Below, piece after piece: positions 294-52,897 of a DNA stretch of 64,000 bases (within the stretch, counting starts at the first letter, position 1; the number at the start of each line of letters is the position of its first letter). The translations under genes and the position numbers were made by a program. The notes beneath the pieces are model-generated. The model was not told the DNA's origin. It was given only the letters and a program-made list of their open reading frames with translations, and searched no databases. Origin of the DNA: Chloroflexota bacterium (GTDB taxonomy: Bacteria; Chloroflexota; Dehalococcoidia; Tepidiformales; Tepidiformaceae); assembly GCA_026702615.1 (NCBI GenBank), contig JAPPBY010000002.1, positions 1 to 64,000 of the forward strand, in the 5' to 3' direction.

Positions 294-311
294 CTCTGGC
301 GCCGGGCGCAA

Positions 312-387: not shown

Positions 388-430
388 CCTTCCCCTTCTC
401 GGGGTTACGGCAAGAGCAGGTTTCGCAATC

Positions 431-453: not shown

Positions 454-578
454 GGCGACGAAGCCGGGTACGGACCTTCACAACTGAAGAGCGATGAAAC
501 TGCGAACGGGTTCGCTGCGTTCCTTTCGGGGAGTGTGGCGAAGCCGGGAAGAGATTCATGCGTGCGAGCCTTAATTGA

Positions 579-3532
<2,954 letters not shown>

Positions 3533-3601
3533 AATTGAGGCTCGCCATGAATCGACGCGGTTTCATCGTTCTTCAGTGCGAAGGTCCACAAGGGCCATCG
3601 G

Positions 3602-3676
<75 letters not shown>

Positions 3677-34964: not shown

Positions 34965-34970
34965 CGGGGC

Positions 34971-34976
34971 AGTGTA
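34971..34976 (-). promoter_or_regulatory. Putative leaderless -10 box of the 34161-34964 hydrolase
   Basis: TACACT on the minus strand ends 6 bases before the ATG. The intervening bases GCCCCG contain no ribosome binding site. Confidence 0.55.
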
Positions 34977-34992
34977 CGCGGGAGATCGACAG

Positions 34993-37358: not shown

Positions 37359-38693
37359 CTATATGCGGGCCCCTCGCGCGCCAGCAACCGCGCGGGCGTC
37401 GGCATCCATGAGTTCCGCGGCCTGTTCGCCCAGCCGGAGGCTGTAGTTCTGGCCGCGGTCCTCGGGGTAGACCTGGGTCGTGTTGGAAAGGTAGAGACCC
37501 CCGATGCCCGTCTCCATGGAGGGGATTGAGGCGGAGTAGTTGGTGGTGATGACGGGCTGGCCGCCGGGGTCGCGGAAAAACCACTTCTCGCGGACCCAGG
37601 AGCGGTCGAACGCGGGGTTGATGCGGCGGATGCTGTCCTCGTAGGCGGTGAGGGCCTCCTCGGCGTCCATCTGGAGGACGGGGTGGTCGGGAGCGACGTA
37701 GTTGGAGAGGTAGACGAGGTGATTGCCGCCGTAGCGCTCCGGACCGACGAGGTTGGTGTGCTCGACGCAGGCGACGAAGGGGAGGTCGTCGGCGATGGAG
37801 AGCCAGTAGACGTCGCTGAGGGGGCGGTCGAGGGCGAGGACGAGGCAGGAGGCCCACTGGTAGCGGACGCGGTCGAGAATCTCGACGTAGGAGGCGGGGA
37901 GGTCGGGGGCGATGCGCTTGGTGATGATGTTGGGGGTGGTCATGAGGACCTGGTCGAACTCGTGGAAGGCGCCGTCAGCACGGATGCCGGTGACGGCGCC
38001 GAGCTCGGTCACGACCGACTCGACAGGGGTGCTGAGGTGAATCTGGCCGCCGGCCTGGCGGATGTGGTCGGCGAGGGCGAAATAGTAGGAGCGGAAGGAG
38101 CCGCGAGGGTAGCCGAGGGTCTCCTTGGCGCCGAGCCGTCCCTCGCGGGAGCCGAAGCGAAGGCGGATCTTCCAGTGGAGCCAGGCCATGCCGATCTCGT
38201 CGGCGTGCTCGGCGAACTTGCCCCGGAGAAGGGGACCCCAGAAGGCGTCGAAGGCCTGCTTGCCGACGGCACGCTCCATCCAGGCGCGGGCGGTCACGTC
38301 CTCGTACACGCGCCAGTCGGCCTGGCGCTTCAGCCAGAGGCTGGCGAGGCCGAGGCGGATGCGGCTGGGGAGGCTGACCGCATCGAATCGGAGGAGGTCG
38401 AGGGGAGTCACGAAGGGATAGACGCGGCCCTTCACGAAGTGCCCGTTATGGGGCTCGATCCACTCGAGGCGGTCGCCCAGCCCGAGGTCGTTGAAGTAGC
38501 GAACGACGGTCGTGTCGTTGGTGAAGATGTGGTGGTAGAAGCACTCGATCGGCTCGTCCCCGACCTCGAAGGTGACGACCTGGCCGCCCGGCTCATCGCG
38601 CCCTTCGAAGATGGTGACCTCGTGGCCGAGCTCCTGGAGGCGGCGGGCTGCGGCGAGGCCCGCGACGCCAGCGCCGACGATGCCGGCCCTCAC
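37359..38693 (-). CDS. FAD/NAD(P)-binding amine-oxidase-like oxidoreductase
   Basis: Protein of 444 residues. The FAD-binding start is AGIVGAGVAGLAAARRL followed by EGRDEPGGQ. The body resembles the group with protoporphyrinogen oxidase, UDP-galactopyranose mutase and desaturase-like proteins. A C-terminal GGLYLSNTTQVYPEDRGQNY closes the FAD site. Substrate unknown; given the surrounding glycosyl genes a sugar-nucleotide or prenyl-lipid role is possible. GTG 38693 overlaps the preceding stop (GTGA). Last gene of the long leftward run. Confidence 0.85.
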   Translation of the reverse strand: MRAGIVGAGVAGLAAARRLQELGHEVTIFEGRDEPGGQVVTFEVGDEPIECFYHHIFTNDTTVVRYFNDLGLGDRLEWIEPHNGHFVKGRVYPFVTPLDLLRFDAVSLPSRIRLGLASLWLKRQADWRVYEDVTARAWMERAVGKQAFDAFWGPLLRGKFAEHADEIGMAWLHWKIRLRFGSREGRLGAKETLGYPRGSFRSYYFALADHIRQAGGQIHLSTPVESVVTELGAVTGIRADGAFHEFDQVLMTTPNIITKRIAPDLPASYVEILDRVRYQWASCLVLALDRPLSDVYWLSIADDLPFVACVEHTNLVGPERYGGNHLVYLSNYVAPDHPVLQMDAEEALTAYEDSIRRINPAFDRSWVREKWFFRDPGGQPVITTNYSASIPSMETGIGGLYLSNTTQVYPEDRGQNYSLRLGEQAAELMDADARAVAGARGARI

Positions 38694-39703
38694 GGGGCCA
38701 CCGCGCTGCGCTCTTCGACGGGCACCCTCGTGAGGCGTCCGAGGCGGGCGATGGGAATGCCGAAAGTCCAGAGCAGGATCAGGCCGACGACGGTGGCGGG
38801 AGCGACGACGACGGCGTGGGCGACGATGGCGTAGGCGGCGGCGAGGCCGCCGGCGAGTCCGGCGTTGACCAGCACGAGCTTGGCGGCCCACTCGAAGGGG
38901 CCGGCCCCGCCGAAGAAGGTGGGGATGATGATGGCGAGGTTGGCGGCGGCGAGGAGGAGGACGTAGTGGGCGAAGCCGAGATCAATGTTGAAGGCGAGTC
39001 CGACGATGGCGTAGGCGCCTGCCTCGACGGTCCAGCCGAGGAGGCTGAAGAAGGCGACAAGGAGGAAGCTGCGCCAGTCGTGGACCGAACGGAGGGCGCC
39101 GATGACCGAGTTGACATGGGGGCGCAGGCGCTCGGCAAGCCGCCGGGGGAGGCGTGCGAGGAGGAACTCGGCGAGGCGGTAGGCGCGCTCCTCGCGCAGA
39201 GTCATCCAGTAGAAGACGACGAGGGCGACGGAGAAGAGCGCGGAAGCGGCGATGGCGATGGCCTGCAGGCGGCTGTCGCCGAGGCCGGTAACAGCTCCGG
39301 CGGTGAGGAGCATGAGGACGAGCACGCAGCCATCGAAGAGGCGCTCAACGGCGATGGCGCCGAGCGTGCCCATGGTGGACACACGCTCACGTTCACCGAG
39401 CACATAGGCGCGGATGAGCTCGCCTGCGCGGGCGGGGAGGAGGTTATTCGCCATGTAGCCGATGATCGAGTACGAGAAGAGGCGCCGCGCGCTGATGGAA
39501 ACGACGGGGCGCATGAGCACGGACCAGCGATAACAGCGGAGCCAGAAAGAGGCGAAGAGCACGACGACGGCGGGGGCGAGGTACCAGTAGGTGGCGCCCT
39601 CGAAGGCATCGGCGATCTCGCCGAGGTCCGTGGCGAGCACGAAGAGCACGATGAGCAACGTGCCAATCGCCACGGCAACCCAGAAGCGGATTGAGCGGAA
39701 CAC
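38690..39703 (-). CDS. Flippase-like integral membrane protein (UPF0104 / LPG synthase TM family)
   Basis: Protein of 337 residues with about eight hydrophobic segments. The motif NNLLPARAGELIRAYVLGE and ERLFDGCVLVLML fit the UPF0104/AglD-C-terminal family, thought to move lipid-linked sugars or lysyl groups. The block PTFFGGAGPFEWA near the end is also typical. The start is GTG. It is 6 bases after the TIGR03663-type gene and overlaps the next gene, so it belongs to the same transcript. Confidence 0.9.
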   Translation of the reverse strand: MFRSIRFWVAVAIGTLLIVLFVLATDLGEIADAFEGATYWYLAPAVVVLFASFWLRCYRWSVLMRPVVSISARRLFSYSIIGYMANNLLPARAGELIRAYVLGERERVSTMGTLGAIAVERLFDGCVLVLMLLTAGAVTGLGDSRLQAIAIAASALFSVALVVFYWMTLREERAYRLAEFLLARLPRRLAERLRPHVNSVIGALRSVHDWRSFLLVAFFSLLGWTVEAGAYAIVGLAFNIDLGFAHYVLLLAAANLAIIIPTFFGGAGPFEWAAKLVLVNAGLAGGLAAAYAIVAHAVVVAPATVVGLILLWTFGIPIARLGRLTRVPVEERSAVAP

Positions 39704-39709
39704 GGCTGA

Positions 39710-42700
39710 TCAGCGCTCCCCGGCCTCGGCGCTGTCGAAGAGGCGCACTCTCCCGGCCCCGCCTTCCACGATCCAGAGCTTACCACCGGGGGTCTCCACG
39801 ATTCCGTACGGGGAACGGAGGGATTCGTCCTCGGGATCGATGACGGTGACGAGGACGCCGGTGTCGGCGTAGATGCGCACCCGGCCGAGCGACGGCAGGG
39901 AGAGGGCGATACGGCCATCGCGGAGCACACGCAGGTAGGGCTTATCGAGGTGGTCGGCGCCTCCCCAGCCGGACACGGGGAATTCGCGCAGGTGGGCGCC
40001 GGACGGATCGAGGACCTGGACGCGCGCGTTCCACATGTCGGCGATGACGATCTCGCCGCTGGGGGCGATATCGATGCCAACGGGTTCGCTGAACTCCGCC
40101 GAGCCGCTGCCCCGGCCCAGCGTGGCGGGGTCGAAGGGAGCGCCAATCTCGCGGACGTACTCGCCCATCGAGGTGTAGACGACGATGCGGTTATGGCCCG
40201 TATCGGTGACCCAGAGGTTGCCATCGGAGTCGATAGCAAGGTCACGAGGCCCGTAGAGGTGGTACGGGCCGGGAGGGGTTCCATCGAACAGCGGACGCTC
40301 GCCAAAGGAGAGCGTGAGCCGGCGGAGCTCGGCATCGAAGGCGAGGATGCGCCACCCGAAGGTGTCAGCCACATAGACGCTGCCGTCGTCTGAGACGGCG
40401 AGTCCCCAGGGCTGGCTCCCGGCGCCATCATCGGTGGGAAGCTCGATGGCGGCGAGGAAGTTGCCTTCAGCGTCGAAGCGCTGCAGGCGACGGGCCGTGC
40501 TGTCGATGACGTAGAGGCTGCCGTCGCGACCAGCCTCGATGTCAACGGGAGCCGAGAACTGGCCGGGGCGGACGCCGAGTCCGCCGAACATGGGGCGGCC
40601 GGCGTCATCGACGCCGGGAGGGGCCGGTTCTAGGGTCTGGGTCGTAAGCCGGCCGGTTTCCCGGTCGAAGTCGAGGGGGAAGTAGGCAATCCCGGCAACC
40701 CGCCCGGGTTCCTGCCGTGGATCGTGGTCGCGCCAGTAGAGGAAGGCATCCTTCGCCCAGCTTCCCTTGAAGATGCCGCTGCCAATCTGGCGCCAGGCCT
40801 CGCCCTCGAAGGGCCCGGCCGTAAGGGCGCTCTTGTAGTTCTCGGGGAACCACCAGCGGTGCGGGTAGCGGGTGGGCGGGGCGAAGCTCGTGACGCCGCG
40901 GGAGACGAGGTCCTGGGAGACGATCGCAGCGTTGGTGGCGTTGACGAGTACGACGTCGAACTCTCCCTGCGGGGGGCCCGACTCCATGTCGCTGAAGACG
41001 ACCTTGTCGTAGTCGCGCAGGTACCAGACCCAGGGCCAGGCGAAGGACGTGCGCGAATCGATAGCGATTCGCAGATCGGCGCCCTTCCCCGTGACCTCGG
41101 CAAGGGCGTCGATCTCATCGGCCATGCGGGTGATCTCGGGAGAGCTCTGCGTGTAGATGAGCATGTCCTTGGGGACATCGCCACGCTCAAAGGTGACCTC
41201 GATCATGGTGCGAACGGAGAAGAAGGCCAGCGAGGCGACGACGATGAGGGCGACGAGCATGGGCAGTGTGCGCCACCCGAGTCTCGAGACGACAAAGCCG
41301 GTCGTGACGATGGTGATCAGGAGCGCGACGGCGCCCCAGGTGACGCGCACGGCGAGCGGGGGTCCCCAGTCGAGGACGAAGGCGACCAGAGTGAGCGCGG
41401 CAGTCGCGAGGGCGAACGCGATCGTGAGCAGCGCGCGGGCATCGAGGGGAGGGGAACGCCAGTGTTCCCAGGCGCGCTGGATGGTCCAGGCGGCGAGGAG
41501 GGCGGCGGGGACGGCGAGATGCGTGTTGAGCCACGGCATCTTCTCGCCGGCGAAGGAAAGGGCGGCAAAGAGGATAAGGAACCAGAGCACGAGGAATCGG
41601 GCGAAGGAGGAGCCTCTCAGGAGGGCCCAGGCCCCGCCTGCGAGCGCCAGCAGGAGGGGGAGGAACTCGTAGGCGGGCATGACCATCAGGTAGTAGAACC
41701 AGGGCTGCATCCCGCGGCGGTAGTCGTGCTGGGCCTGCCAGTGATCGATGGAGCCCCAGAGACCGGTGCAGAACCCGTCGAGGTTCGTCCAGAGGCTGGT
41801 GACGAGGGTCAGGTAGATGAAGACGGCGACCCCCGCGGCGATCAACCAGGTGCGCGGGCGCCAGAGGAGACCAGCCACGGTTGCGATCGCGCAGACGACG
41901 GCGAAGCCGGTCACCAGCGCGGCGGCGTCACGCGTTGAAGCGGCGGCGCAGATCTCGGGAAAGTCCAGCGGGCCCGACGAGAAGGCCTCAAGGAGGGGCT
42001 TGGCGAAGGGGACGAGGAAGGGAAGCGTGAGCGTACCGGTCAGGACGACGAGATCCCCGGCCCGAGGGAGCCGTCGCCATGCGCCGGCCTCGCGCAGGAG
42101 GGGCCAGAGGGCGGCGATGATCCAGGCGAAGGGGTAGAGCGCGGCGGCCCGGAAGAAGCGCGCCCAGGTTGCCCCGGCGCCTGACTCCTCCGTGGGCTGC
42201 CGCACAAGGTCGAGTGCCAACTGTCCGTTCAGGTAGAGGAGGAGGAAGGCGACGAAGAGGAAGGCCGCCTCTTTGGTAGCGAAGGCGAGGGAGAGGGCGA
42301 CGGCGAAGGTGATGAGCCAGCGCGTTCGGCCGTCGTGGAGGTACTTCCACATGGCCGCCACGAGGACGAGCAAGAGGAAGGCCAGGAAAATGTCCATCCT
42401 CAGGAAGCGGCTGTAGTAGACGAGTGTGGGGGAGAAGGCGAGGAAGGTGACCGCCGCGAACACTCCCCCGGAGCCGAGCCAGCGCCGGAACGCAAAGGGG
42501 GCAGCGACGACGGCCATGCCGAAGAGGGCGGGGGAGATGCGGGCGGTGTAGTCGGTGGCGGTGAAGACGATGAAGGTGAAGCCCTGCGCCAGGTAGAGCA
42601 GGGGGCCGTGGAAGACAGGGCTGTGGGTGTAGGAGCCCTGGGCGAAGTCCCAGGCCCACTTGGCGTGGATGCTCTCGTCGTGGTGGAGGGCGCGGGCGCC

Positions 42701-42838
42701 AAGATCCCAGAAGCGCAGGGCGAAGGCGGCCGCGAAGACGAGGACGTAGGCAACCAGCACCCAATCCACCTCGATGCGGCGGGCCAGCAGGCGGTCGAAG
42801 GCATTCCCTTCGGTGGCTGGGCCGGGGCCGGAGGTCAT
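39710..42838 (-). CDS. TIGR03663-type membrane glycosyltransferase fused to an NHL-repeat propeller
   Basis: Protein of 1042 residues. The N-terminal 550 residues are multi-spanning with the GT-C-like acidic motif LHHDESIHAKWAWDF near residue 55 and a long loop SYTHSPVFHGPLLYLAQ, as in TIGR03663/Agl23 proteins of archaea and Chloroflexi. The middle is a soluble domain. The last 280 residues carry at least five NHL-type blades (RPGQFSAPVDIE, SQPWGLAVSDDGSVYVADT, YGPRDLAIDSDGNLWVTDT, FSEPVGIDIAPSGEIVIAD, RSPYGIVETPGGKLWIVEG), a likely six-bladed extracytoplasmic propeller. It probably adds or polymerises lipid-linked sugar. The ATG overlaps the previous stop (ATGA). Confidence 0.87.
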   Translation of the reverse strand: MTSGPGPATEGNAFDRLLARRIEVDWVLVAYVLVFAAAFALRFWDLGARALHHDESIHAKWAWDFAQGSYTHSPVFHGPLLYLAQGFTFIVFTATDYTARISPALFGMAVVAAPFAFRRWLGSGGVFAAVTFLAFSPTLVYYSRFLRMDIFLAFLLLVLVAAMWKYLHDGRTRWLITFAVALSLAFATKEAAFLFVAFLLLYLNGQLALDLVRQPTEESGAGATWARFFRAAALYPFAWIIAALWPLLREAGAWRRLPRAGDLVVLTGTLTLPFLVPFAKPLLEAFSSGPLDFPEICAAASTRDAAALVTGFAVVCAIATVAGLLWRPRTWLIAAGVAVFIYLTLVTSLWTNLDGFCTGLWGSIDHWQAQHDYRRGMQPWFYYLMVMPAYEFLPLLLALAGGAWALLRGSSFARFLVLWFLILFAALSFAGEKMPWLNTHLAVPAALLAAWTIQRAWEHWRSPPLDARALLTIAFALATAALTLVAFVLDWGPPLAVRVTWGAVALLITIVTTGFVVSRLGWRTLPMLVALIVVASLAFFSVRTMIEVTFERGDVPKDMLIYTQSSPEITRMADEIDALAEVTGKGADLRIAIDSRTSFAWPWVWYLRDYDKVVFSDMESGPPQGEFDVVLVNATNAAIVSQDLVSRGVTSFAPPTRYPHRWWFPENYKSALTAGPFEGEAWRQIGSGIFKGSWAKDAFLYWRDHDPRQEPGRVAGIAYFPLDFDRETGRLTTQTLEPAPPGVDDAGRPMFGGLGVRPGQFSAPVDIEAGRDGSLYVIDSTARRLQRFDAEGNFLAAIELPTDDGAGSQPWGLAVSDDGSVYVADTFGWRILAFDAELRRLTLSFGERPLFDGTPPGPYHLYGPRDLAIDSDGNLWVTDTGHNRIVVYTSMGEYVREIGAPFDPATLGRGSGSAEFSEPVGIDIAPSGEIVIADMWNARVQVLDPSGAHLREFPVSGWGGADHLDKPYLRVLRDGRIALSLPSLGRVRIYADTGVLVTVIDPEDESLRSPYGIVETPGGKLWIVEGGAGRVRLFDSAEAGER

Positions 42839-44457
42839 GGCGCCCTCACGTAGACGGCCACAATCTCCAGCCGCTGATCGAGACTGTTCCGCTCCGCGAA
42901 CCAGTGGGCGAACCCAAGAAAGCCATCCGGGCCGTCGATCTCGCGTTCAAACACCCAGCGACCGTCAAGGGCCACGAAGCCCTCCGGCGGGGGAGCACCG
43001 GCGGGCCAGATCACGACACCGGCACCGGCGGGCAGGTTGCTCGCAAGCAGGAGCGTGCCTGAATCGCGGAAGGGCCAGGTAAGCGCTTCGCGGTAGCGTT
43101 CGTGGACAACGATGGAACCCCCGGAGGTGTTCGCCGAGAGGGCAACATCGCGGATGGCGCGCGCGGACGATGGACTTGTCGGCCCGGGGAGAGGCTCACC
43201 GGCGGCGCTCAGGGCAATGCCACTCGAGCCCGCCAGCAGCAGAACGCCTCCGATCGCGACGGGAGCCAGGAGCGTGAGCGGCAGTGACTCGCGATAGGTC
43301 GCAAGAGTGGCGAGGGCCGTGACGGCGCCGATACCGGCCACGACGAGAAGCGCGCGTTCATAAGCGCCGCCGGCGTGTCCCTGTCGGGCCCAGTCGCTGA
43401 GGACGAAGCAGGCGATAGCCGCGAGGGCAAGGGCGAGGAGCAGAAGCCAGCTCTCCCGGCGCCAGGTGATCGCCATCAGCCGGCCGGCCAGGCGGGCAAG
43501 GGCAGGGCCCAGGAGCAGGCAGGAGGCGAAGGTGGCGGCGGCGAGAGGGAAGGGTGAGTGCGTGGGCAGGGCCACAAGGAACCAGACCACGGCGATACCA
43601 GCCACACCGAGCGAGAGAGTCTCCATTGGAGTGGGGGACCGGCCCTCGTCGCGGAGCCGGACGGCCAGCCAGACGACAGCGGCCGCGCCGCCGACGAGGA
43701 GGGGCAGCCCGTAGAGGGCGGCGAGCTCGGCGACGGAGAGGGTCGACCAGGGCTCGTCGAAGCCGGCGGCAATGAGCGAGAAGGCGGCGATGCGGAGGCC
43801 GTCGGCATCGACGCCGAACTGGAGACTCGTCAGGAGCACGCCCAGGGCCGTTCCGGCGGCTCCCCAGAGGAGAGCCCCGCGGGTGGGGCGGTGGCGGTGC
43901 AGGGCAGCGCTCACCGTCGCCGCAAGGACGACGGTGAGGCACAGCGGTCCCGCGGTGGCTACGAGGAAGGCGATGAGGAACCATCCCCAGGGTGGTGGCC
44001 GGCCGGCGACGAGGGCGACGACAAGCCAGAGGGCGATGGCCGCATCCCAGGCGGCGGCTGTGGCGGTCACCCCGAGGACGATGCCGGCAGGGTCGAGGGC
44101 GAGTAGCAGGAGGGCGAGGAGGGCGCCGCCTTCTCCGAGCCGCCGCCGGAGCATGAAGAGCGCCAGGGGGATCGTGAGGGCGCCGGCAAGGGCGATTGCT
44201 CGCGCGGGCTGCTCGGACTCGGTCCAGCCCAGGGTGAGGGCGGTCACCGCCTGGTAGAGGGTCGGACCGTAGCGGTCGTCCTCGACGCCGATGCGCGCCT
44301 GCCAGGCGCCGGAGAGATGCGCGAGTTCGGCGCCGCCGACGGGGGCTCTCCAGACCAGCCCGACGCGCAGCAGAATGAAGAGCGCCACGACGAGCACCCA
44401 GGCGATGGCCGCGACGGAGACGGTGGGGAGGCGGGAAGGAGCGGGCGGGGAGGTCAT
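42835..44457 (-). CDS. Multi-spanning membrane protein, GT39-like
   Basis: Protein of 540 residues with about ten hydrophobic segments. It opens with a helix and then the loop PVGGAELAHLSGAWQARIG; acidic residues in the first large loop recall GT-C enzymes (protein O-mannosyltransferase type). DDRYGPTLYQAVTAL follows. No closer family is recognised. The final 100 residues form a soluble domain ending VYVRAP. Overlap with both neighbours (ATGA) places it in the glycan run. Function inferred from neighbours and topology only. Confidence 0.75.
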   Translation of the reverse strand: MTSPPAPSRLPTVSVAAIAWVLVVALFILLRVGLVWRAPVGGAELAHLSGAWQARIGVEDDRYGPTLYQAVTALTLGWTESEQPARAIALAGALTIPLALFMLRRRLGEGGALLALLLLALDPAGIVLGVTATAAAWDAAIALWLVVALVAGRPPPWGWFLIAFLVATAGPLCLTVVLAATVSAALHRHRPTRGALLWGAAGTALGVLLTSLQFGVDADGLRIAAFSLIAAGFDEPWSTLSVAELAALYGLPLLVGGAAAVVWLAVRLRDEGRSPTPMETLSLGVAGIAVVWFLVALPTHSPFPLAAATFASCLLLGPALARLAGRLMAITWRRESWLLLLALALAAIACFVLSDWARQGHAGGAYERALLVVAGIGAVTALATLATYRESLPLTLLAPVAIGGVLLLAGSSGIALSAAGEPLPGPTSPSSARAIRDVALSANTSGGSIVVHERYREALTWPFRDSGTLLLASNLPAGAGVVIWPAGAPPPEGFVALDGRWVFEREIDGPDGFLGFAHWFAERNSLDQRLEIVAVYVRAP

Positions 44458-46901
44458 CGCGTCGGCACCTCCTCGAGCGTGGGCGCGCGGTAGACCCTCA
44501 CCTCACCCTCCGCGAAGACCGTATCGAGAAACGTCTCGAACGCGGGGATGAGGCTGCCCCGGTAGCGCTCCCGCTCTTCGCGCCCGACGACGACGTAGGT
44601 GGCCCCAAGCTCCTCGAGGGCGCGGACCACCTCCTCCGGGCCCGTGGCGGTGTAGACGGAATCGACGAGATCGCGGCGGTGGTCCACCTCGGGGGCGACC
44701 TCCTTCCCGCGCCAGGTGCGCTCGTGGCCGGGCCAGCCTACGGGCACCTGGAGACCGGTGCGGAAGCCCACGCGGCCAAACGACCCATAGCCGCCAGGGT
44801 CCTCAAGGAGGGCCTGACCCTCGTCGCCCGTTCTCCAGACCCGCCCGGACGCCTCCACAACGACGGCGTCGGGCTCGACGTTCTCGGCAAGCCACTCGAT
44901 GAGGGCGTACTCGTCGGGGTAGTAGAAGTCGACGAAGTGGAGGCCGTCGAGACTAACGGCCTCGCGGAAGCCATCGGTGCGGTTGGGCATCATCGTCACG
45001 GCAAAGACGAGCGACCCGGCGAGCAGCAGTGTGGCGGGGGCAGCAAGGAACAACCGGGGCCGGGGAGCAACGAAACGGAGAGCGGCGACGAACACGACCG
45101 GGGAGGCGATGGAGAGGACGATCCAGGCCTGATAGGAGAGCTTGAAGACCGTGTTATGTCGCGGGACGAAGAAGAGCGCATCGCGGATGAACAGCAGCTC
45201 CGTCCCATACAAGAGGAGGAGGCCGAGGGTGGCGAGACCGGCGACGGGCGCGGCCGAGTGGCGTCGTTCGGCAAGCCTGATGGTGGCGAAGGCAAGCAGC
45301 CAGAGGACGGCGGCGTAGAAGGCCAGGGTGAGCCATCCACCCGCCCCGCGACTGGAGAAGGCGTCGCCGAGCCCGGCCTCCTCGGCGAAGATGCCGGCGG
45401 CACGGCCGGCGCCGGCGAGGATGATCCAGAGAAGGAACGGCAGTGCAGGAAGGAGGAACGCCAGGGCCAGATGCCCGAGGCGGATGGAGAGACCCGGGCG
45501 GGGCAGGGCCCAGGCGACCACGGGAAGGCTGAGGACGACAATCGTGCCCCAGAAGAGGAGGACATGCCGGATGCGGGTACCGGAGTCGCTGTAGGCGTAG
45601 AGGCCGCCGACGGAGCCACTGCTGAGATCGACGATCCAGGGAGAGTAGGCAGCGAGGGCGAGGAGAGCGGGGACGGCAAGGTACGAGATGGCACCCGTCA
45701 TCGCGGGGGCGGGCGCGCCGGCTCGAAGGTTCCTGGCCAGCACAGCGGCGAAGAGAACCGTCGAGAACGTGATGACGTCCCAGGTGTTGACGAATGCGAG
45801 ACTGCCGAAGACGAGCGTCACCACGAGGAGCCACAGGGGACGGCGCCGGTGCTCGCGCCAGGAGAGGAGCCCGCGTCCCCGCCAGAGAGCGGCGCTGAGG
45901 GCGAGTGCGAGGATGATCCCGGGGATGGCCATCACATGGGGGTGCAGGTCGCCAAGGAGGAAGCTGAAGAAGGGCACCTCCGTGATGACGTCGGTGTAGC
46001 CCGGCTGGGGGCCCCAGTAGGACATGCGGGACATGCGCCACCAGGCCCAGTGGTCAGTGGGGAACCAGCGTTCTGTTGAGTCGAGGGGTTGCCCGATACA
46101 GGAGTCGCCGGCGCCGACGCCGCAGCGAACGAGGCCCTCCACGCCGAAAGCGGTGTAGACGCCCTCAGAGGAGGCGCCGTGCGCGGAGGCGAGCTCGAAG
46201 ATGCTCGCGAGGGGGCCGGCGAAGAGCAGGAGAAGCACGCCGCCTGCCGCGGCCATGGGAATCCAACGCCGGGCGCGGGCGCCGAGGAGCCAGCGCGCAA
46301 GCGCGGCGCAGATTGAGGCGGCGGCAACGCCGGCGCTGGCGAAAACGGCAGCCAGGGAGAGGTTGTAGCCGGTCGCCGGCCAGACGTCGGCGGCGCCCGT
46401 CAACACGGCGGCCTGGAGGTAGCCGCCGTAGTAGTAGCTCGCGTTCTCGCCGGCAAACCAGGGATCGTGCGGGGGGTAGTCGGGGGAGACCAGCATGGCG
46501 TTGAGATAGAGGAAGTCCATCGGCTGCTCGGTGTGCGCGATATCGGGCGAGTGCGCGCGAACGAAGGCGTAGCCGAAGAAGAGCACCGAGAAGAGCACCG
46601 CGGCGACGGTGAGGCCACGGAGGGAGCGGCAAAGGGTCGCGAGGAAGCGGCGGTCGCGGACGGCGAGCACGACCATGGCGACGGCGAAGAGGGCGATCGC
46701 GAGGATGAAGCCGCCCCGCCCCGCAGGGAGGGCGCCCACGACCCGGAGGAGGAAGTAGCCGGTGGAGATGAGGGTGAGCCCCAGGGTGAAGGAAAGGCCC
46801 GCGCCGGCATCGGGAAAGCGGGCGAAGAGGCGGAAGGCGAGGGGCAGGGCCAACGCCGCGATGACGAGCGCGACACCCCAGAAAGCCAGGGCCTCAGTCA
46901 T
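44454..46901 (-). CDS. DUF2298 / YYY-domain membrane protein
   Basis: Protein of 815 residues with many hydrophobic segments. The YYY signature is visible near residues 125-165: PMDFLYLNAMLV, PHDPWFAGE and ASYYYGGY. A further conserved stretch, PFFSFLLGDLHPHVMA, follows. This family is known mainly from Chloroflexi and archaea and is thought to be a GT-C-type glycosyltransferase. The C-terminal 150 residues are a soluble domain with ALEELGATYVVVGREERERY. It starts 9 bases after ftsY and overlaps the next gene by four bases. Confidence 0.88.
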   Translation of the reverse strand: MTEALAFWGVALVIAALALPLAFRLFARFPDAGAGLSFTLGLTLISTGYFLLRVVGALPAGRGGFILAIALFAVAMVVLAVRDRRFLATLCRSLRGLTVAAVLFSVLFFGYAFVRAHSPDIAHTEQPMDFLYLNAMLVSPDYPPHDPWFAGENASYYYGGYLQAAVLTGAADVWPATGYNLSLAAVFASAGVAAASICAALARWLLGARARRWIPMAAAGGVLLLLFAGPLASIFELASAHGASSEGVYTAFGVEGLVRCGVGAGDSCIGQPLDSTERWFPTDHWAWWRMSRMSYWGPQPGYTDVITEVPFFSFLLGDLHPHVMAIPGIILALALSAALWRGRGLLSWREHRRRPLWLLVVTLVFGSLAFVNTWDVITFSTVLFAAVLARNLRAGAPAPAMTGAISYLAVPALLALAAYSPWIVDLSSGSVGGLYAYSDSGTRIRHVLLFWGTIVVLSLPVVAWALPRPGLSIRLGHLALAFLLPALPFLLWIILAGAGRAAGIFAEEAGLGDAFSSRGAGGWLTLAFYAAVLWLLAFATIRLAERRHSAAPVAGLATLGLLLLYGTELLFIRDALFFVPRHNTVFKLSYQAWIVLSIASPVVFVAALRFVAPRPRLFLAAPATLLLAGSLVFAVTMMPNRTDGFREAVSLDGLHFVDFYYPDEYALIEWLAENVEPDAVVVEASGRVWRTGDEGQALLEDPGGYGSFGRVGFRTGLQVPVGWPGHERTWRGKEVAPEVDHRRDLVDSVYTATGPEEVVRALEELGATYVVVGREERERYRGSLIPAFETFLDTVFAEGEVRVYRAPTLEEVPTR

Positions 46902-46910
46902 GGGGGAGCC

Positions 46911-47906
46911 TCACGCAAGGAGGGCGTCGACGAAGGTTTCGGCATCGAAGGGGGCGAGATCGCCCAGACCCTCACCGGTGCCGATGAGCCGCACGGGAAC
47001 GCCGAGGTCGCTGGCGATGGCGAAGACAATTCCACCACGGGCGGTGCCGTCGAGCTTGGCGAGAACGAGGCCGGTCACGCCGACGGCCTCGGTGAAGGCG
47101 CGGGCCTGGAGGAGGCCGTTCTGGCCGGTGGTGGCATCGAGGACGAGGAGGGTTTCGTGGGGGGCGTCGGGATGGCGGCGCTGGATGACGCGGGTGACCT
47201 TCTTCAGCTCCTCCATCAGGTTCGACTTGGTATGCAGCCGGCCCGCGGTATCGATGATGGCGACGGCCGCGCCATCGGCTTCGGCGGCGGAGAGGGTGTC
47301 GAAGACGACGGCGCCGGGATCGCCGCCGGGCTGATGGGCGACGACGCGCACGTCGAGGCGTTCGCCCCACGTGCGGAGCTGGTCGATGGCGGCGGCGCGG
47401 AACGTATCGGCGGCAGCGAGGATGGGGGTGTAGCCGCCGGCGTTGAGGGCGGATGCGAGCTTGGCGATGGAGGTGGTCTTCCCGGCGCCGTTGACGCCGA
47501 CGACGAGGATGACGAGCAGGTCCGGGAAGGGAGCGTCCCAGCGAGGCGGGTCGCCGGCGGGGGCTTCAAGGATGGCGATGAGCTCCGCGCGGAGAATGTC
47601 ACGGACCTGGGCGGACGTGGTGGCGCGGGTCTCACGGACCTGCTCGCGAACGTTCTCGAGGATGCGCTCGGTGGTCGCGATGCCGGTGTCGGCGGTGATC
47701 AGAATCTCCTCAAGCTCCTCCCAGAGGTCGTCGTCGAAGTCGGGACGGTCGAAGAGGCGGCCGATCTGCCCGAGGAGGCCAGAGCGGCTGCGCGCGAGGG
47801 CGCGTCCTGACTGGGCCTCGATCTCCTCGACCTGCTCCGGGGTGAAGGCAGAATCTTCCGGGGACGGGGAGCCGTCGGGGTCCTGTTGTCTTCGCCAGAA
47901 CCGCAT
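46911..47906 (-). CDS. ftsY: Signal recognition particle receptor FtsY
   Basis: SRP GTPase of 331 residues. The G1 loop is GVNGAGKTTSIAKLA, followed by AADTFRAAAIDQL, DTAGRLHTKSNLMEEL, AKLDGTARGG and a C-terminal TGEGLGDLAPFD. The helical N domain (LWEELEEILITADTG) is present, and the acidic A domain is short. It docks SRP-ribosome complexes at the membrane. ATG 47906 is chosen for GGAGGGG 3 bases before; an upstream in-frame start adds a basic extension. It lies between smc and the membrane glycan genes. Confidence 0.96.
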   Translation of the reverse strand: MRFWRRQQDPDGSPSPEDSAFTPEQVEEIEAQSGRALARSRSGLLGQIGRLFDRPDFDDDLWEELEEILITADTGIATTERILENVREQVRETRATTSAQVRDILRAELIAILEAPAGDPPRWDAPFPDLLVILVVGVNGAGKTTSIAKLASALNAGGYTPILAAADTFRAAAIDQLRTWGERLDVRVVAHQPGGDPGAVVFDTLSAAEADGAAVAIIDTAGRLHTKSNLMEELKKVTRVIQRRHPDAPHETLLVLDATTGQNGLLQARAFTEAVGVTGLVLAKLDGTARGGIVFAIASDLGVPVRLIGTGEGLGDLAPFDAETFVDALLA

Positions 47907-47969
47907 CGCCCCTCCACGAACGCCAGCCCGGCGCCGCCCCGGATTCTCCCCCAAGGCCCCAGACCGGTG

Positions 47970-50900
47970 CTAGCGGCTCCCGGCCTCCACGGCCGCTCGC
48001 GGCCCGGCGGGAGCCTCCTCAGGGGCCTCGCCATCCGAGGTCTCCACTTCCTGAGCCTCGCTCGGCGGGACGCCCCCGGGGAGATCTGAGAGGCGAAGGG
48101 AGAGCGTGCTGGAAACGCCGCCGGGGCCCATCGAGACGCCGTAGATGGCGTCAGTGGACTCAATCGTGCGGCGGTTGTGGGTCACGATGAGGAACTGGGT
48201 GCGGTCGGCAAGACGGGCGAGCTCGGCGACGAAGCGGCCGACGTTCGCCTCGTCGAGGGCCGCATCGACCTCATCGAGGACGCAGAAGGGAGCGGGGTTC
48301 ACGGAGAGGAGGGAGAACAGAAGGGCGACGGCCGTGAGCGAGCGCTCGCCGCCGGAGAGGAGGCTGAGGGTGCTGAGGCGCTTGCCGGGGGGCTGGGCTT
48401 CGATCTCGATGCCGGAATCGATGATGTCGTCGGGGTCGAGCAGCTTGAGGCGAGCAGCGCCTCCGCCGAAGAAGGCCGTGAAGTAGTTGCCGAAGGCGGA
48501 GTCGACCTCGGCGAAGGTGGCGCGGAAGCGGGTCCGTATCTCGCCATTGAGCTCGGCGATGGCGCTCTGGAGCTGGGCCTCGGCGTCGGTGAGGTCCTGG
48601 ACCTGCTCGGTGAGGAAGGCGTGGCGCTCCTCGCTCTCGCGAAAGTCGTCGGGCGCCTCCTGGTTGATGGGCCCCAACTTGCGGATGGCGGCCCGCACCT
48701 CCTCGATCTCGCGCTCGGTGGCGTCGAGGTCGGGAGCGTCGTCGCCCGAGGCGGGGGCGTCGAGCCCACCGCCGGGAGTCAGGCCCTCGCGAGCCATCTC
48801 GGTGCGCAGCGTTTCGAGCCGCTCGCGAGCGCGGTCGAGGGCAGCTTCGAGATCCAGATGGCGGCGGCGCGACTCAAGGAGAGCGGTCTGCGCTTCGCCG
48901 TATTCGGCCTGCACGGCGCGCTCGTGCGTCTCGAGGCGTAGCAGCTCGTCGCGGTCGGGGGCGCTGTCGTCGGTGGAGTTCTCCTGATCGATCTTGAGCT
49001 GCTCGAGCTCCTCGGTCTGACGCTCGATCGCCTCGGCGAAGTTGCCGGCCTCAAGCTCGAGGTTCTGGGCGCGGAGGATGCGCTGCGCGATCTGGGACGA
49101 GAGGCGCTCGATGGCGCGCTTCTGCTGCTCGCGGGCAAGCGCGTGGGCCCTGGCCTCGCCCTCGGCGGAGGCGAGCCGGGCGCTGGCCCCGGAGACCTCC
49201 TCGACCGCTTCCTCGGCACGGGTCGGGGCGGCTTCGAGGTCGGGGGCGAGGGACTCGAGCTCGGCGCCCAGCTCCTCGCGGCGAGCGGTGAGTTGGGCGA
49301 GGAGGGCGCGCGCGTCCTGGGCGGCCTGCTCATCGACGAAACTGCCGGCGAGCTCGCGTCGGCGGGCAAGGACGTGGGTCATCTCGCGCCGGATGCGGTG
49401 GAGGCGATCCCGCTCCCGCTCGCGGGCCCGCAGGGCGTCATCGAGGGCGGTACGGCTCTCCTCGTGGGCGTGGTCGCTCTCCTCGACGAGGCGGGAGAGG
49501 CGTTCGACGGTCTCGCGGGCGCTCTCGACCTGGTCGCGGTTGGCTTTGACGACTTCCTCAAGGTCGGCGATCTGGCCGGGGAGCTCGTCGATTTCGCGCT
49601 GGCGAGTGAAGCTGAAAGGGCTCTCGGAGTCGGAAGCGAGGCCGCCGGTGATGACGCCCGAGGGGTCGAGGAAGACGCCGTCGAGGGTGACGACGGCGCC
49701 GAGGCCGCGGGTAAGCATGCGCCTGGCGACGCGCATGTCCTCGACGACGATGATGCGGCCGAGGAGGGTATCGACGAGGTCGCGGAAGCGCGCCTCGCAA
49801 CGGACGAGTCGGGAGGCGACGCCGACGACGCCGCGCTCCTTCTGGAGGTTCAGCGGGTAGACCTTGCGCAGGCCATCGAGGGGGAGGAACTGAGCGCGTC
49901 CGCGCGCGCCCTCGCGCAGAAGATCGATGGCCTGAAGCGCCTCGGCTTCGTGCTCGACGATGATGGCGTGGAGGTGGTTTTCGAGGGCGGCGTTGATTGC
50001 CGCCTCAAGGCCGGCGGGAACGCGGAGGTGTCGGGAGAAGAGGCCAACGACGCCGGTCACTTCGGGCGCTTCGCCAAGACTGCCCGGCTTCACGTTCTCG
50101 ATGAGCACCTGGCCCATGATGAGGGCGTTGCGCGTGCCGGTGGCGATGCCCTCGCTCTCGGCCTGGACTCGCTTGAGCACTTCGAGGCGCCCCTGGAGAT
50201 GGTCCAGCTGGCGAAGGGGTCCCTTCCCGGCCTCTTCGAGCTCACGCAACTCGTTCTGGACGCGGGCGAGGCGCTCGCGGGCGCCCGCGGCGGCCTGGCG
50301 AGCCTCCAGGAGGCTCGACTCGGCCGCGGCGGCGCGCTCGCTCAGCTCCGCGCGGCGGCGGCGGTAGGCGACGAAGTCGAGGAGCAGCTGCCTGCGACGC
50401 TCGTTGATAGTCTCCGCCTCGGGGCCCTCGGCAGGGCCGCGAACGGCACGCTCCGCGGCGGCGCCTTGCTCCCGAATGCGCTCTTCGAGGGCGGCGAGCT
50501 GGCCGCGGAGCTCCTCGGCCCGGCGGTGGAGCGCCGAGTCCTCCCGCTGGGCAGCGGTGAGGGCCTCGCGGGCGCGCTCAAGGGTGACCCGGAGGGCTTC
50601 GATCTCGTCGGTCAGCTCCATCGCACGCCGTCCGCTCTCAAGGTCGGCGGCGGCGAGGGTGGCCTTCTCGCCTTCGAGCGCTTCGACCTCGGTGCGAATC
50701 TCGCCGTGGCGGGTGGTGGTCATGCTGTGGCGTTCGCGGTCGAGGATGAGGGCGTGCTCAAGGGAGCGGGTGCGGCCTTCGAGGTCGTTGCGGGCGCCAT
50801 CGCGGCGGGCGACTGCCTCGCGGCGCCTCCCGATCTCCTCGCCGAGGGCCTGGAGCTGCTCTTCGAGCGTGGTGACGCGCGACTCGGCGTTCTCGTCCTC

Positions 50901-51659
50901 AGCGCCGCGCTGGTCGAGCTCGGCCTGGGCGCGGGCGATGGCGGTGCGGGTCTCGCTCCAGCGGGAGGAATAGAGCTGGCGGAGGAGCGTTGCGAGGCGG
51001 GCGGAGAGATCGCGATGCTCGCTGGCGCGGTTAGCCTGGCGGCGGAGGAGGCGGAGGCGGGGTTCCAGCTCGTCGATGATGATCTGGACCTTCGCCATGT
51101 TCTCGCGCGTGCTCTCAAGGCGGTTGTGGGCGTCGGCGATCTTCGTGCGGAAGGGCTTGACGTCGGCGGCCTCATCGATCAGCGAGCGGCGCTCCTGGGG
51201 GGAGAGGCTGAGCACCTCGTCGACCATGCCCTGGCCCATGATGGCGTAGCTGTTCTGGCCGACGTTGGCCTTCTGGAGGAGGTCGTTGAGGTCGCGCAGG
51301 CGGATGCGGGAGCCGTTCAGGAGGTACTCGGTGTCGCCGTCGCGATAGGCGCGGCGACCGATCTGGATCTCGCTGTAGTCGAGGGGGAGCCAGCCGTCAC
51401 TGTTGTCGAGGGTGAGGGTGACCTCGGCCATGCCGAGGGGAGGGCGGTCGCCGGCGCCGGAAAAGATGACGTCTTCCTGCTTGCGGGCGCGGAGGAGACG
51501 CAACCCCTGCTCGCCGAGGACCCAGCGAACGGCATCGGCGACGTTGCTCTTGCCCGAGCCGTTGGGGCCGATGATGGCGGTGACGCCGGAGCCGAACTCG
51601 AAGGTGGTCTCCGGGGCGAAGCTCTTGAATCCCTGAAGCGTGAGGCGCTTGACGTACAC
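47970..51659 (-). CDS. smc: Chromosome segregation protein SMC
   Basis: Protein of 1229 residues. The N-terminal ATPase half has IIGPNGSGKSNVADAVRWVL (P-loop near residue 32). Two long Glu/Arg-rich coiled coils flank a hinge near residues 520-660. The C-terminal half has LSGGERSLTAVALL and VLDEVDAALDE. A proline/acid-rich tail follows the ATPase. It organises and segregates chromosomes with ScpA/ScpB, which are not encoded here. It begins 3 bases after the rnc stop, the widespread rnc-smc-ftsY order. Confidence 0.97.
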   Translation of the reverse strand: MYVKRLTLQGFKSFAPETTFEFGSGVTAIIGPNGSGKSNVADAVRWVLGEQGLRLLRARKQEDVIFSGAGDRPPLGMAEVTLTLDNSDGWLPLDYSEIQIGRRAYRDGDTEYLLNGSRIRLRDLNDLLQKANVGQNSYAIMGQGMVDEVLSLSPQERRSLIDEAADVKPFRTKIADAHNRLESTRENMAKVQIIIDELEPRLRLLRRQANRASEHRDLSARLATLLRQLYSSRWSETRTAIARAQAELDQRGAEDENAESRVTTLEEQLQALGEEIGRRREAVARRDGARNDLEGRTRSLEHALILDRERHSMTTTRHGEIRTEVEALEGEKATLAAADLESGRRAMELTDEIEALRVTLERAREALTAAQREDSALHRRAEELRGQLAALEERIREQGAAAERAVRGPAEGPEAETINERRRQLLLDFVAYRRRRAELSERAAAAESSLLEARQAAAGARERLARVQNELRELEEAGKGPLRQLDHLQGRLEVLKRVQAESEGIATGTRNALIMGQVLIENVKPGSLGEAPEVTGVVGLFSRHLRVPAGLEAAINAALENHLHAIIVEHEAEALQAIDLLREGARGRAQFLPLDGLRKVYPLNLQKERGVVGVASRLVRCEARFRDLVDTLLGRIIVVEDMRVARRMLTRGLGAVVTLDGVFLDPSGVITGGLASDSESPFSFTRQREIDELPGQIADLEEVVKANRDQVESARETVERLSRLVEESDHAHEESRTALDDALRARERERDRLHRIRREMTHVLARRRELAGSFVDEQAAQDARALLAQLTARREELGAELESLAPDLEAAPTRAEEAVEEVSGASARLASAEGEARAHALAREQQKRAIERLSSQIAQRILRAQNLELEAGNFAEAIERQTEELEQLKIDQENSTDDSAPDRDELLRLETHERAVQAEYGEAQTALLESRRRHLDLEAALDRARERLETLRTEMAREGLTPGGGLDAPASGDDAPDLDATEREIEEVRAAIRKLGPINQEAPDDFRESEERHAFLTEQVQDLTDAEAQLQSAIAELNGEIRTRFRATFAEVDSAFGNYFTAFFGGGAARLKLLDPDDIIDSGIEIEAQPPGKRLSTLSLLSGGERSLTAVALLFSLLSVNPAPFCVLDEVDAALDEANVGRFVAELARLADRTQFLIVTHNRRTIESTDAIYGVSMGPGGVSSTLSLRLSDLPGGVPPSEAQEVETSDGEAPEEAPAGPRAAVEAGSR

Positions 51660-51662
51660 GGG

Positions 51663-52409
51663 TCAGGCTCCCACGGGGACGCTGGTGGCGGTTTCGACGG
51701 AGAGGGCGGCGTGGGCCTGGCGGGCCGCCTCGTGCTGGGCGGCGCGCTTGCTCGACCCGCTTCCACGACCAAGCATCTCACCGGAAACGCGAACCTCCAC
51801 CACGAATCGACGCCCCTCCTCCTCGGCCTGCTCCGCGACAGTGACATAGTCCGGGGGCTGGTGCCAGCGCGCCTGCACGAGGTGCTGGAGCGCGGACTTG
51901 GGATCGAGGGAAGGACCGCCGTCTCGCATGGAGTCGATCTCGGGTTTGAGCAGGCGGAGAGCGAGGGCGCGAGCGACCGTGAGCCCGTGGGCGCGGTAGA
52001 CCGCTCCGACAACCGCCTCGAAGGCGCCGGCGAGGTTGCGCTCGCGGTCACGACCGCCGGCGGCCTCCTCGCCACGACCGAGGATCAGGTAGCCGCCGAG
52101 GTCGAGGCGGCGGGCGGCCTTGGCGAGGGTGCTGCCGCGAACGATCTCCGCGCGCATACGGGTGAGTTCGCCCTCAGCGGCCTCGGGATAGGCGCGGAAC
52201 AGCTCGTTCGCGACGACCATGCCGAGGATGGAATCGCCGAGGAATTCGAGACGCTCGTTGGGCGTCGCCTGGGAAGAACTCTCGTTGGGGTAGGAGGCGT
52301 GCGTGAGGGCCTCGCAGAGGAGATCATCGGGGAGGGGCTTGATGCCAAGCCTCTCCGCCAGGTCGCCACTGCGCGGGGGCGACTGGACCACGGTGGCCGT
52401 GCTCTCCAA
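51663..52409 (-). CDS. rnc: Ribonuclease III
   Basis: Protein of 248 residues. The catalytic signature NERLEFLGDSILG is near residue 52, and the second acidic site AFEAVVGAVY follows. A dsRNA-binding domain from about 165 ends in SGSSKRAAQHEAARQAHA. It processes rRNA precursors such as the 14 bp stem flanking 23S in this window. The start is TTG at 52409 with GGTGGGGG upstream; an ATG at 52423 is out of frame. First gene of the run that extends to 37359. Confidence 0.95.
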   Translation of the reverse strand: MESTATVVQSPPRSGDLAERLGIKPLPDDLLCEALTHASYPNESSSQATPNERLEFLGDSILGMVVANELFRAYPEAAEGELTRMRAEIVRGSTLAKAARRLDLGGYLILGRGEEAAGGRDRERNLAGAFEAVVGAVYRAHGLTVARALALRLLKPEIDSMRDGGPSLDPKSALQHLVQARWHQPPDYVTVAEQAEEEGRRFVVEVRVSGEMLGRGSGSSKRAAQHEAARQAHAALSVETATSVPVGA

Positions 52410-52444
52410 GATGCCCCCACCATCTCAATTGTTAGGGTTCCTTG

Positions 52445-52474
52445 ATCATATCGGCGGGCGTTTGAAAGTGTCAA
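52445..52474 (-). promoter_or_regulatory. Sigma-70-type promoter of the rnc run
   Basis: On the minus strand, TTGACA (52474 to 52469) is followed after 18 bases by TATGAT (52450 to 52445). Both are near-consensus. The rnc start is 35 bases downstream. This is the best promoter seen in the window and overlaps the divergent promoter for the zinc-finger gene. Confidence 0.8.
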
Positions 52475-52501: not shown

Positions 52502-52897
52502 ATGACTGAGACTGCTTCATCCGATTCGTGCTCGATCTGCACCGAGCCCGTCGAGCCCCACACCGAGTCGTACTGCAACGCGTGCGGACGGCTGTTCCAC
52601 CTGAATCAGCGGGAGGATCTGCCGGGCCGTGATTGCGGCACGGTCTCGCTGAGCGAGACGCACCTGGCGCTGGTGTTCGCGTGCAACGCCTGCCTGGAGG
52701 CGGCGGAACCGGTCGCGCCGACCCTGGAGGCGGTGCTGGACCTCTCGGAGGCAGCGCTGGCGACCGGGCTGAGCGAGGGCGAGCTGGAGGCGGAGGCGGC
52801 CGCGGGGCAGATCTCGCACCGGCGCACGGCGGGCGGGTCGCTGTTGTTCGATCGAGAGGCGGTCGAGGCCCTCCTGCGGACAAGGGGAACGGCATGA
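52502..52897 (+). CDS. Small protein with RING-like zinc finger and HTH_17-like C-terminus
   Basis: Protein of 131 residues. Residues 10-64 hold possible zinc ligands in cross-brace order: Cys10/Cys13, Cys25/Cys28, His33/Cys45, Cys61/Cys64 (SCSICTEP, YCNACGRLFHL, FACNACLE). This pattern recalls RING/PHD treble-clef fingers. Residues 80-128 resemble an excisionase-type HTH (LSEAALATGLSEGEL, then GGSLLFDREAVEALL). It may bind DNA or protein, and lies divergent from rnc with overlapping promoters. Function unknown. It is coupled to the next small membrane protein (ATGA). Confidence 0.75.
   Translation: MTETASSDSCSICTEPVEPHTESYCNACGRLFHLNQREDLPGRDCGTVSLSETHLALVFACNACLEAAEPVAPTLEAVLDLSEAALATGLSEGELEAEAAAGQISHRRTAGGSLLFDREAVEALLRTRGTA

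Follow-up and report, generated by a model that had tools for sequence, protein, structure and literature searches.

The window analysed here is a stretch of 64,000 nucleotides (nt) from the forward strand of contig JAPPBY010000002.1 (assembly GCA_026702615.1), which comes from a bacterium of the class Dehalococcoidia (Chloroflexota, family Tepidiformaceae). From position 52409 down to position 37359 it holds eight open reading frames (ORFs), all on the minus strand, in the order rnc, smc, ftsY, a YYY/DUF2298 gene (YYY), gene 5, a gene for an Agl23 protein with an NHL propeller (agl23), a UPF0104-like gene (upf) and a gene for a flavin adenine dinucleotide (FAD) enzyme (Table 1). The gaps between them, read from rnc to the FAD gene, are 3, 63, 9, −4, −4, 6 and −4 nt and are exact for the called starts, confirming the one-strand run of the initial annotation. 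That annotation had let the run end with the FAD gene; its stop position was correct, but the run extends past it, still on the minus strand, with ORFs for NuoE-like, NuoF-like and alpha/beta-hydrolase proteins (window 34161–37325). In many relatives, both in the window's family and in some other families, the FAD gene is likewise followed by a NuoE-like gene. Matches to gene families were judged against the curated Pfam and NCBIfam cut-offs, and seven of the eight proteins of the run exceed the cut-off of their family. The family names first given to these seven were thereby upheld. Gene 5 has no Pfam or NCBIfam match at E 0.001 and was assigned to the glycosyltransferase-C (GT-C) fold through profile and fold comparison. 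The ftsY ORF stays open further upstream to a TTG at 47954, a possible alternative start; relatives back the ATG start, with smc–ftsY gaps of 61–67 nt in loci L091, L092, L094, L095 and L102.

Table 1. Features of the rnc–FAD enzyme run and its immediate neighbours (window coordinates)
Feature	Position	Strand	Evidence
Promoter-like site TTGACA-N18-TATGAT, head of run	52445..52474	-	11/12 consensus matches
rnc, ribonuclease III, TTG start	51663..52409	-	TIGR02191 229.1 bits, cut-off 166.25
smc, chromosome segregation SMC	47970..51659	-	TIGR02168 901.2 bits, cut-off 567.35
ftsY, signal recognition particle (SRP) receptor, ATG start	46911..47906	-	TIGR00064 334.6 bits, cut-off 260.7
YYY/DUF2298 polytopic membrane protein, predicted GT-C fold and C-terminal globular domain	44454..46901	-	TIGR03662 380 bits, cut-off 300.25
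Gene 5, putative short Agl23-like GT-C paralogue	42835..44457	-	Profile and fold comparison; no Pfam/NCBIfam match
agl23, Agl23/TIGR03663 GT-C membrane domain and C-terminal NHL beta-propeller	39710..42838	-	TIGR03663 241.8 bits, cut-off 126.25
upf, UPF0104/TIGR00374 flippase-like membrane protein (PF03706)	38690..39703	-	162.3 bits and, for TIGR00374, 94.9 bits (cut-off 43.2); over both cut-offs
FAD amine-oxidase-like enzyme (NF005560/PRK07233, Amino_oxidase)	37359..38693	-	NF005560 472.4 bits, cut-off 252, obtained on the longer ORF 37359-38891
NuoE-like [2Fe-2S] protein	36852..37325	-	PF01257 115.2 bits; starts 33 nt past FAD gene
NuoF-like ORF, true start probably near 36855	34993..36966	-	PF01512 147.5 bits
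Divergent small helix-turn-helix (HTH_17-like) protein with cysteine cluster	52502..52897	+	PF12728 22.2 bits, under cut-off 27

The junction of ftsY and YYY was followed through related genomes (G numbers) and loci (L numbers). Of the 24 genomes of the window's family, 22 have ftsY immediately upstream of YYY, the exceptions being a much fragmented assembly in which the 1.2 kb upstream of YYY hold no ftsY (G012) and a genome in which the region is cut by contig ends (G018). Other families of the class Dehalococcoidia have the junction in 11 of 14 genomes with YYY, though in some of these (G024, G028, G039) it sits at the end of a contig or spans a wider gap; it is missing from G030, where the two genes lie 12 kb apart on one contig, from G031, which has no ftsY over the cut-off, and from G037, which has no ftsY. 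The comparison outside the class was made by eye on 121 sampled Chloroflexota genomes, of which 15 belong to the class and many are fragmented assemblies, and among the matches listed no YYY outside the class lay less than 20 kb from an ftsY, the nearest being at about 23 kb.

Eighty named loci, which share L091, L092, L094, L095, L099–L101 and L112 with the set of family genomes, were grouped by their labels. Among the 24 labelled Dehalococcoidia, SAR202 or Tepidiforma, ftsY lies no more than 150 nt before YYY in 22 and at 846 nt in L130, and L108 has no ftsY in 10 kb. Another 24 carry the labels of different classes or orders. The junction occurs in one of them, L105, a metagenome-assembled genome (MAG) labelled Thermoflexus that is perhaps misbinned; 15 have no ftsY in more than 1 kb of upstream sequence, and eight are too short. 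For the 32 with unspecific labels, ftsY was found within 150 nt in 17 and at 1.6 kb in L139, and was not seen in 14, some of which end at contig ends. The loci nearest to the window's YYY are labelled Dehalococcoidia or Chloroflexi. All eight genes occur in this order in a cultivated species, Tepidiforma flava (L102). Loci of other classes have YYY, often as tandem copies, then a short Agl23-like protein and the long Agl23, and no ftsY; five of the long Agl23 proteins from such unlinked loci were scanned, and all had NHL repeats. It should also be noted that in the Ardenticatenaceae MAG L157 (17535–21289) agl23 and upf are followed by BacA/UppP and then by ftsY, all within 4 kb. This is a possible second nearness of the block to ftsY outside the Dehalococcoidia and would count against strict class specificity. 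Another arrangement was seen in L106, where a DedA/VTT-family gene (8278–8937), of a lipid-carrier transport type, separates agl23 from upf.

A tree of 103 YYY proteins, built by a quick method with a midpoint root and no bootstrap, placed all 42 ftsY-linked rows inside one clade of 45 (Shimodaira–Hasegawa-like approximate likelihood ratio test, 99), with the three unlinked rows L093, L108 and L112 nested within it. Linkage was here defined as ftsY being next upstream within 2 kb, which includes L130 and L139; nine of the 103 rows had too little upstream sequence to belong to a linkage group, L101 was counted as linked and L103 lies outside the tree. The linkage label needs four changes on this tree, compared with a mean of about 31 in shuffles. 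The YYY proteins of T. flava and of the window share a clade of 13 rows, and the window's genome is accordingly probably close to Tepidiforma. L093 (1–1516), whose YYY stands at 62% to that of the window, has no ftsY or other gene of the cluster in its 1.5 kb of upstream sequence. Because all linked YYY proteins fall into the one clade of 45, a single origin of the ftsY–YYY junction in the Dehalococcoidia line, with three subsequent losses, is most likely. The gene order, which according to the initial annotation should be shared by relatives, is thus kept through most of the class and goes back to one origin. An oddity of a single genome, or a chance product of assembly, was rejected as an explanation since the order recurs in relatives and the tree gives one origin.

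Promoter scans covered sigma-70-like consensus sites. In the window, the site at the head of the run is the sole minus-strand match between 36000 and 54000 (two matches in total, compared with 0.4 in shuffles), and terminator-like sites are not above chance, with four found and 5.1 expected. In a comparative scan of the 140 nt upstream of each gene, with a threshold of at least 9 of 12 matches, a promoter-like site was detected before rnc in all 17 family loci examined, 16 of them with a spacer of 18 nt. No such site was detected in the family loci before smc (0/18), ftsY (0/20), YYY (0/22), gene 5 (0/19), agl23 (0/21) or upf (0/18). The single strong promoter that the initial annotation saw at the head of the run was borne out by these counts, and for the interval between ftsY and YYY they revealed neither terminators above chance nor a promoter-like site in the family. 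The family also keeps the ftsY–YYY gap at 3–10 nt in all 20 rows with both ORFs called, and at the two junctions that follow, the genes overlap in most rows (−4 nt in 12/19 and 14/18, respectively). With co-directional genes, short gaps and a promoter at the head only, the run would form a single transcription unit read as one mRNA.

Single members of the run have dropped out in several genomes. G034 and G038 have no smc between rnc and ftsY; in G037, a genome without detectable ftsY or ffh, YYY, agl23, upf and the FAD gene stand directly behind rnc; and ftsY is present with no YYY match in G032 (81% complete), G033, G035 and G142. Since members are lost singly, the linkage is inherited and positional, not obligatory, and the parts are dispensable to one another. 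The initial annotation had suggested that shared control ties envelope glycosylation to growth. In its fuller form, this idea explains the retention of the glycan genes under the ftsY promoter by a need to keep envelope glycosylation in step with growth, or to match the supply of SRP receptor to their large membrane proteins. Such a coupling would agree with the long retention of the order, ftsY being next before YYY in 23 of the 24 loci labelled Dehalococcoidia, SAR202 or Tepidiforma, and with the tight gaps in the family. It is, however, quite improbable: the YYY block stands without ftsY in other classes and in G037, ftsY stands without YYY in G032, G033, G035 and G142, and NuoE/NuoF-like genes follow at the other end of the run. 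On these grounds the coupling was not supported and was rejected as the principal explanation.

Profiles for Ffh and FtsY and a model for the 4.5S RNA gave no acceptable match in 10 of 14 Dehalococcoidia genomes, the ten being the same for all three (G036, G054, G080, G063, G072, G104, G119, G134, G096 and G037; rnc regions L234–L243), and all three were found in the other four. The ten comprise eight genomes of family f14, seven of these in a single contig, together with G096 and G037; their rnc regions hold no N, and G063, G072 and G134 gave matches to the FtsY profile only at E 1.6e-4 to 6.8e-4. In control genomes the FtsY and Ffh profiles matched 14 of 14 and the RNA model 12 of 14, missing Bacillus subtilis and a Bacteroides, so that the absence of the 4.5S RNA is the weakest of the three. 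An rpoB tree of 27 rows, which included five of the eight f14 genomes and in which the rows of G005 and G039 were ignored (probably wrong frames, very long branches), placed the loss at two points, namely a 100/100 clade of f14 and G096, and G037. It would be very unusual for the signal recognition particle to be lost entirely in nature, and among the literature matches listed for dehalococcoids and for SRP loss no report of it was found. The SMC_prok_B profile, which was over the cut-off in 10 of the 14 control genomes, had no match over the cut-off in any of the 14 Dehalococcoidia genomes, with weak partial matches in 13 (best 42 bits). The genomes negative for SMC include G088 and G150, which have ftsY and YYY, and in several loci rnc and ftsY are close neighbours without smc.

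The match of the YYY protein to TIGR03662 is near full length (profile 5–725 of 727). From the family name we take a YYYxG motif to be expected, and it was found: Y156 and Y157 are present in 45 of 47 YYY proteins each, and Y158 and G160 are invariant in all 47, as are, among others, E125, D146, W148, R292, E308, D318 and H320. A structure predicted with 46 relatives (predicted local distance difference test (pLDDT) 91.9, predicted TM-score 0.94) had its best match in STT3 of the yeast oligosaccharyltransferase (OST) 8agc, with Z 16.0 and a root mean square deviation (rmsd) of 7.4 over 473 aligned residues, followed by AglB 3waj (Z 14.2, rmsd 7.8, 463 aligned) and ArnT 5f15 (Z 13.4, rmsd 6.4, 446 aligned); with the comparison tool used, Z values up to about 13 can be due to chance for helical proteins. 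The C-terminal domain of the model matched AglB 3vu0 with Z 11.0 and rmsd 2.5 over 114 aligned residues. Rows 1–39 of the list (Z 16.0–7.6) consist of GT-C enzymes, two AglB C-terminal domains and one chain of the glycosylphosphatidylinositol transamidase, which we take to have a GT-C-like fold, and the first unrelated row stands at Z 6.2. Foldseek gave the C-mannosyltransferase DPY19 as the best match (E 3.3e-5), with low TM-scores of about 0.3. The YYY model is accordingly one of GT-C fold.

YYY was rejected as a true oligosaccharyltransferase. Enzymes of the STT3, AglB and PglB type have a WWDYG motif in the C-terminal domain; a WWDYG-like string was found in 0 of the 47 YYY proteins, and there was no STT3 Pfam match. 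A T-I-x-E string (E308) and D318-x-H320 recall motifs of OSTs, but both sit in one loop of the model, whereas the Glu of OSTs sits in another loop, and they were not counted as evidence. Profile comparison of YYY with Agl23 or with gene 5 gave no usable match. In the available text of the literature found under its family names no function is given for YYY/DUF2298, and one paper gives a list of neighbours only.

The Agl23 protein exceeds the PMT_2 cut-off (33.2 bits, cut-off 26.1) and has an NHL match of 83.7 bits; a sequence search of solved structures gave only NHL and other beta-propeller entries among the matches listed. Proteins of TIGR03663/Agl23 are expected to keep a DE and an HG unchanged in the first outer loop, and D54, E55, H77 and G78 of this loop are present in 18 of 18 Agl23 proteins, in which the strings HHDES.H and HG are likewise invariant. 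Gene 5 is connected to Agl23 through the short Agl23-like protein that fills its slot in other classes: the gene 5 set aligned with the short set at an hhalign E of 7e-26 over 521 columns, and the short set aligned with Agl23 at E 4e-54 over 560 columns, that is, over the full membrane domain. Compared directly with Agl23, gene 5 aligned over the first 115 columns only (probability 94.7). Its predicted structure, made from 11 sequences (pLDDT 79.9), matched Pmt4 9i5l (Z 22.1, rmsd 4.5, 354 aligned) and ArnT 5f15 (Z 19.6, rmsd 4.1, 403 aligned). The acid column of the first outer loop holds Asp in all 18 Agl23 proteins, in four of 18 proteins of the short set and in none of 17 gene 5 proteins, which have A (13), L (2), E (1) or S (1) there; the Glu after it is kept in 18/18, 17/18 and 17/17, respectively. 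Judged from profiles and models, gene 5 is an Agl23 paralogue of GT-C fold that has lost the first-loop Asp, and with no catalytic Asp in that loop it would fall outside the active GT39/PMT enzymes. The two proteins are suggested to be an active/inactive GT-C pair; Pmt1–Pmt2 is a precedent for pairs of GT-C proteins.

Agl23 may also be read as a flippase for lipid-linked sugars and not a glycosyltransferase, in which case the block would mainly be a translocation system. The available text of one study describes the Agl23 of Haloarcula hispanica as a putative flippase for hexose-phosphate dolichol that rescues yeast without Rft1 and, when purified, moves lipid-linked Man5GlcNAc2 in liposomes (PMC11182771), and the name of the NCBIfam family reflects this role. 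In the same text, however, the half-time of hydrolysis with the control protein Agl22 resembled that of the flippase-containing liposomes (PMC11182771). A pure flippase would moreover hardly need the invariant D54, E55, H77 and G78 or a PMT_2 match over the cut-off, and Agl23 retains the Asp that is missing from its paralogue, gene 5. That the GT-C acids are so strictly conserved points to catalysis in addition, and we regard a flippase without transferase activity as unlikely. The two views make different predictions for mutants of the acids.

For the UPF0104-like protein, a sequence search returned no match to a solved structure. The best solved sequences for the FAD enzyme were 3ka7 (E 6e-12) and the phytoene dehydrogenase 5mog; NF005560 is described by NCBIfam as a hypothetical protein, and PRK07233 was not named in any paper by the literature search.

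In our assessment the locus is probably a vertically inherited operon of the Dehalococcoidia, in which a block for sugar transfer at the outer face was joined once behind rnc-smc-ftsY and is read from their housekeeping promoter. Gene order, the single origin of the junction, the promoter pattern, the predicted GT-C folds and the conservation of residues were computed here. A polyprenyl-phosphate sugar, made elsewhere, would be brought to the outer leaflet, perhaps with the help of the UPF0104-like protein. Agl23 with its NHL propeller and YYY would then take lipid-linked sugars of this kind as donors in glycosylating a surface protein or a glycolipid, with gene 5 as a partner subunit, and the FAD enzyme may modify the carrier or a sugar. 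One transcript, the substrates, the acceptor, the partner role of gene 5 and the role of the FAD enzyme are what we infer in this scheme. The lipid-carrier genes intercalated in two relatives, DedA/VTT in L106 and BacA/UppP behind upf in L157, speak for it, as do the invariant first-loop acids and the action of H. hispanica Agl23 on lipid-linked sugars. Tepidiforma cells are described as having peptidoglycan and a tetragonal surface layer (available text of PMC10284905), and densities on the archaellum of Litorilinea aerophila, of the Chloroflexota, have been read as likely O-glycans (available text of PMC12488501); a surface glycoprotein is thus a fair candidate for the acceptor.

Several points weigh against this explanation. 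The TM-scores near 0.3 place the kinship of YYY with GT-C enzymes at the superfamily level only. Gene 5 cannot be essential, since G002, G007 and G016 lack it or have only a remnant. The initial annotation had considered all of the last five genes likely to serve lipid-linked sugar transfer; this is well backed for the three GT-C proteins and plausible for the UPF0104-like protein, and for the FAD enzyme it is a guess. Internal promoter-like sites were detected in a wider locus set, before YYY (5/48 loci), ftsY (7/43) and upf (8/29), and the site before rnc was detected in 8/23; the eight loci overlapping the family genomes (L091, L092, L094, L095, L099–L101, L112) were left out of this set, and some family members, for example L096–L098 and L102, remained in it. 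Internal transcription starts are thus likely elsewhere, and one transcript may not hold class-wide. In three loci of the family itself the smc–ftsY gap widens to 570 nt (L064), 667 nt (L061) and 1261 nt (L096), beyond the reach of the 140-nt scan.

It is possible that non-consensus promoters or weak terminators split the run into several transcripts, with the order being an inherited neighbourhood only. The scans could address consensus sites only, and the internal sites before upf and ftsY, the smc–ftsY gaps of 0.6–1.3 kb and ftsY–YYY gaps of up to 145 nt, or of 846 nt in L130 and 1.6 kb in L139, would all be accommodated by such a split. Within the family, however, the 3–10 nt between ftsY and YYY in 20 of 20 rows, the −4 overlaps that mostly follow and the restriction of promoter-like sites to the head make several transcripts unlikely.

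A further reading takes YYY as a diverged OST-like enzyme, placed behind the SRP receptor for co-translational glycosylation of SRP-targeted surface proteins, with the Agl23 pair supplying the lipid-linked sugars. We regard it as very improbable; if true, it would be a bacterial parallel to the chain of SRP, translocon and OST in the endoplasmic reticulum, and G037, which has no SRP and keeps YYY, would represent a relapse to post-translational use. With the vertically inherited operon as the preferred explanation, its presence throughout the class and in the cultivated T. flava makes it a concrete place in which the functions of these families can be tested, including whether Agl23 acts as a flippase or as a glycosyltransferase, and the locus is a clean case of class-wide retention of a gene order from which single members drop out.

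Outside the run, the start region of the small divergent gene abuts the rnc promoter, and a counterpart lies upstream of rnc in relatives; its HTH_17-like product is a possible regulator. The left end of the window (217–3676) is a ribosomal RNA (rRNA) region with tRNA-Ile, tRNA-Ala, 23S rRNA (579–3532) and tRNA-Met.

Among known systems, the Agl23 of H. hispanica belongs by name to the same NCBIfam family and acts on lipid-linked sugars, according to the available text of PMC11182771. The Agl23 of the window, which is likened to it by family name and not by sequence, differs in its bacterial host, its NHL fusion and its neighbours. YYY resembles STT3 and AglB in predicted fold and in the C-terminal domain but is without WWDYG, and gene 5 resembles PMT and ArnT in predicted fold but is without the first-loop Asp. 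The pair of TIGR03662 and TIGR03663 occurs in Chloroflexota and Archaea, and NCBI notes comment on the co-occurrence of the two; here both are over the cut-off, they are neighbours in many loci, and the NHL propeller and the slot for a short Agl23-like protein are shared with the pair elsewhere. The window differs from it in that the pair is joined to ftsY and in that gene 5 has diverged beyond recognition by Pfam and NCBIfam. The rnc-smc-ftsY cluster is known from B. subtilis, and the window shares both its genes and their order. Behind ftsY, eight listed genomes of Chloroflexota outside the class (G043, G050, G059, G068, G071, G087, G154 and G155) carry another SRP GTPase, probably Ffh as judged by score and frame length, whereas in the Dehalococcoidia the YYY block takes this place.

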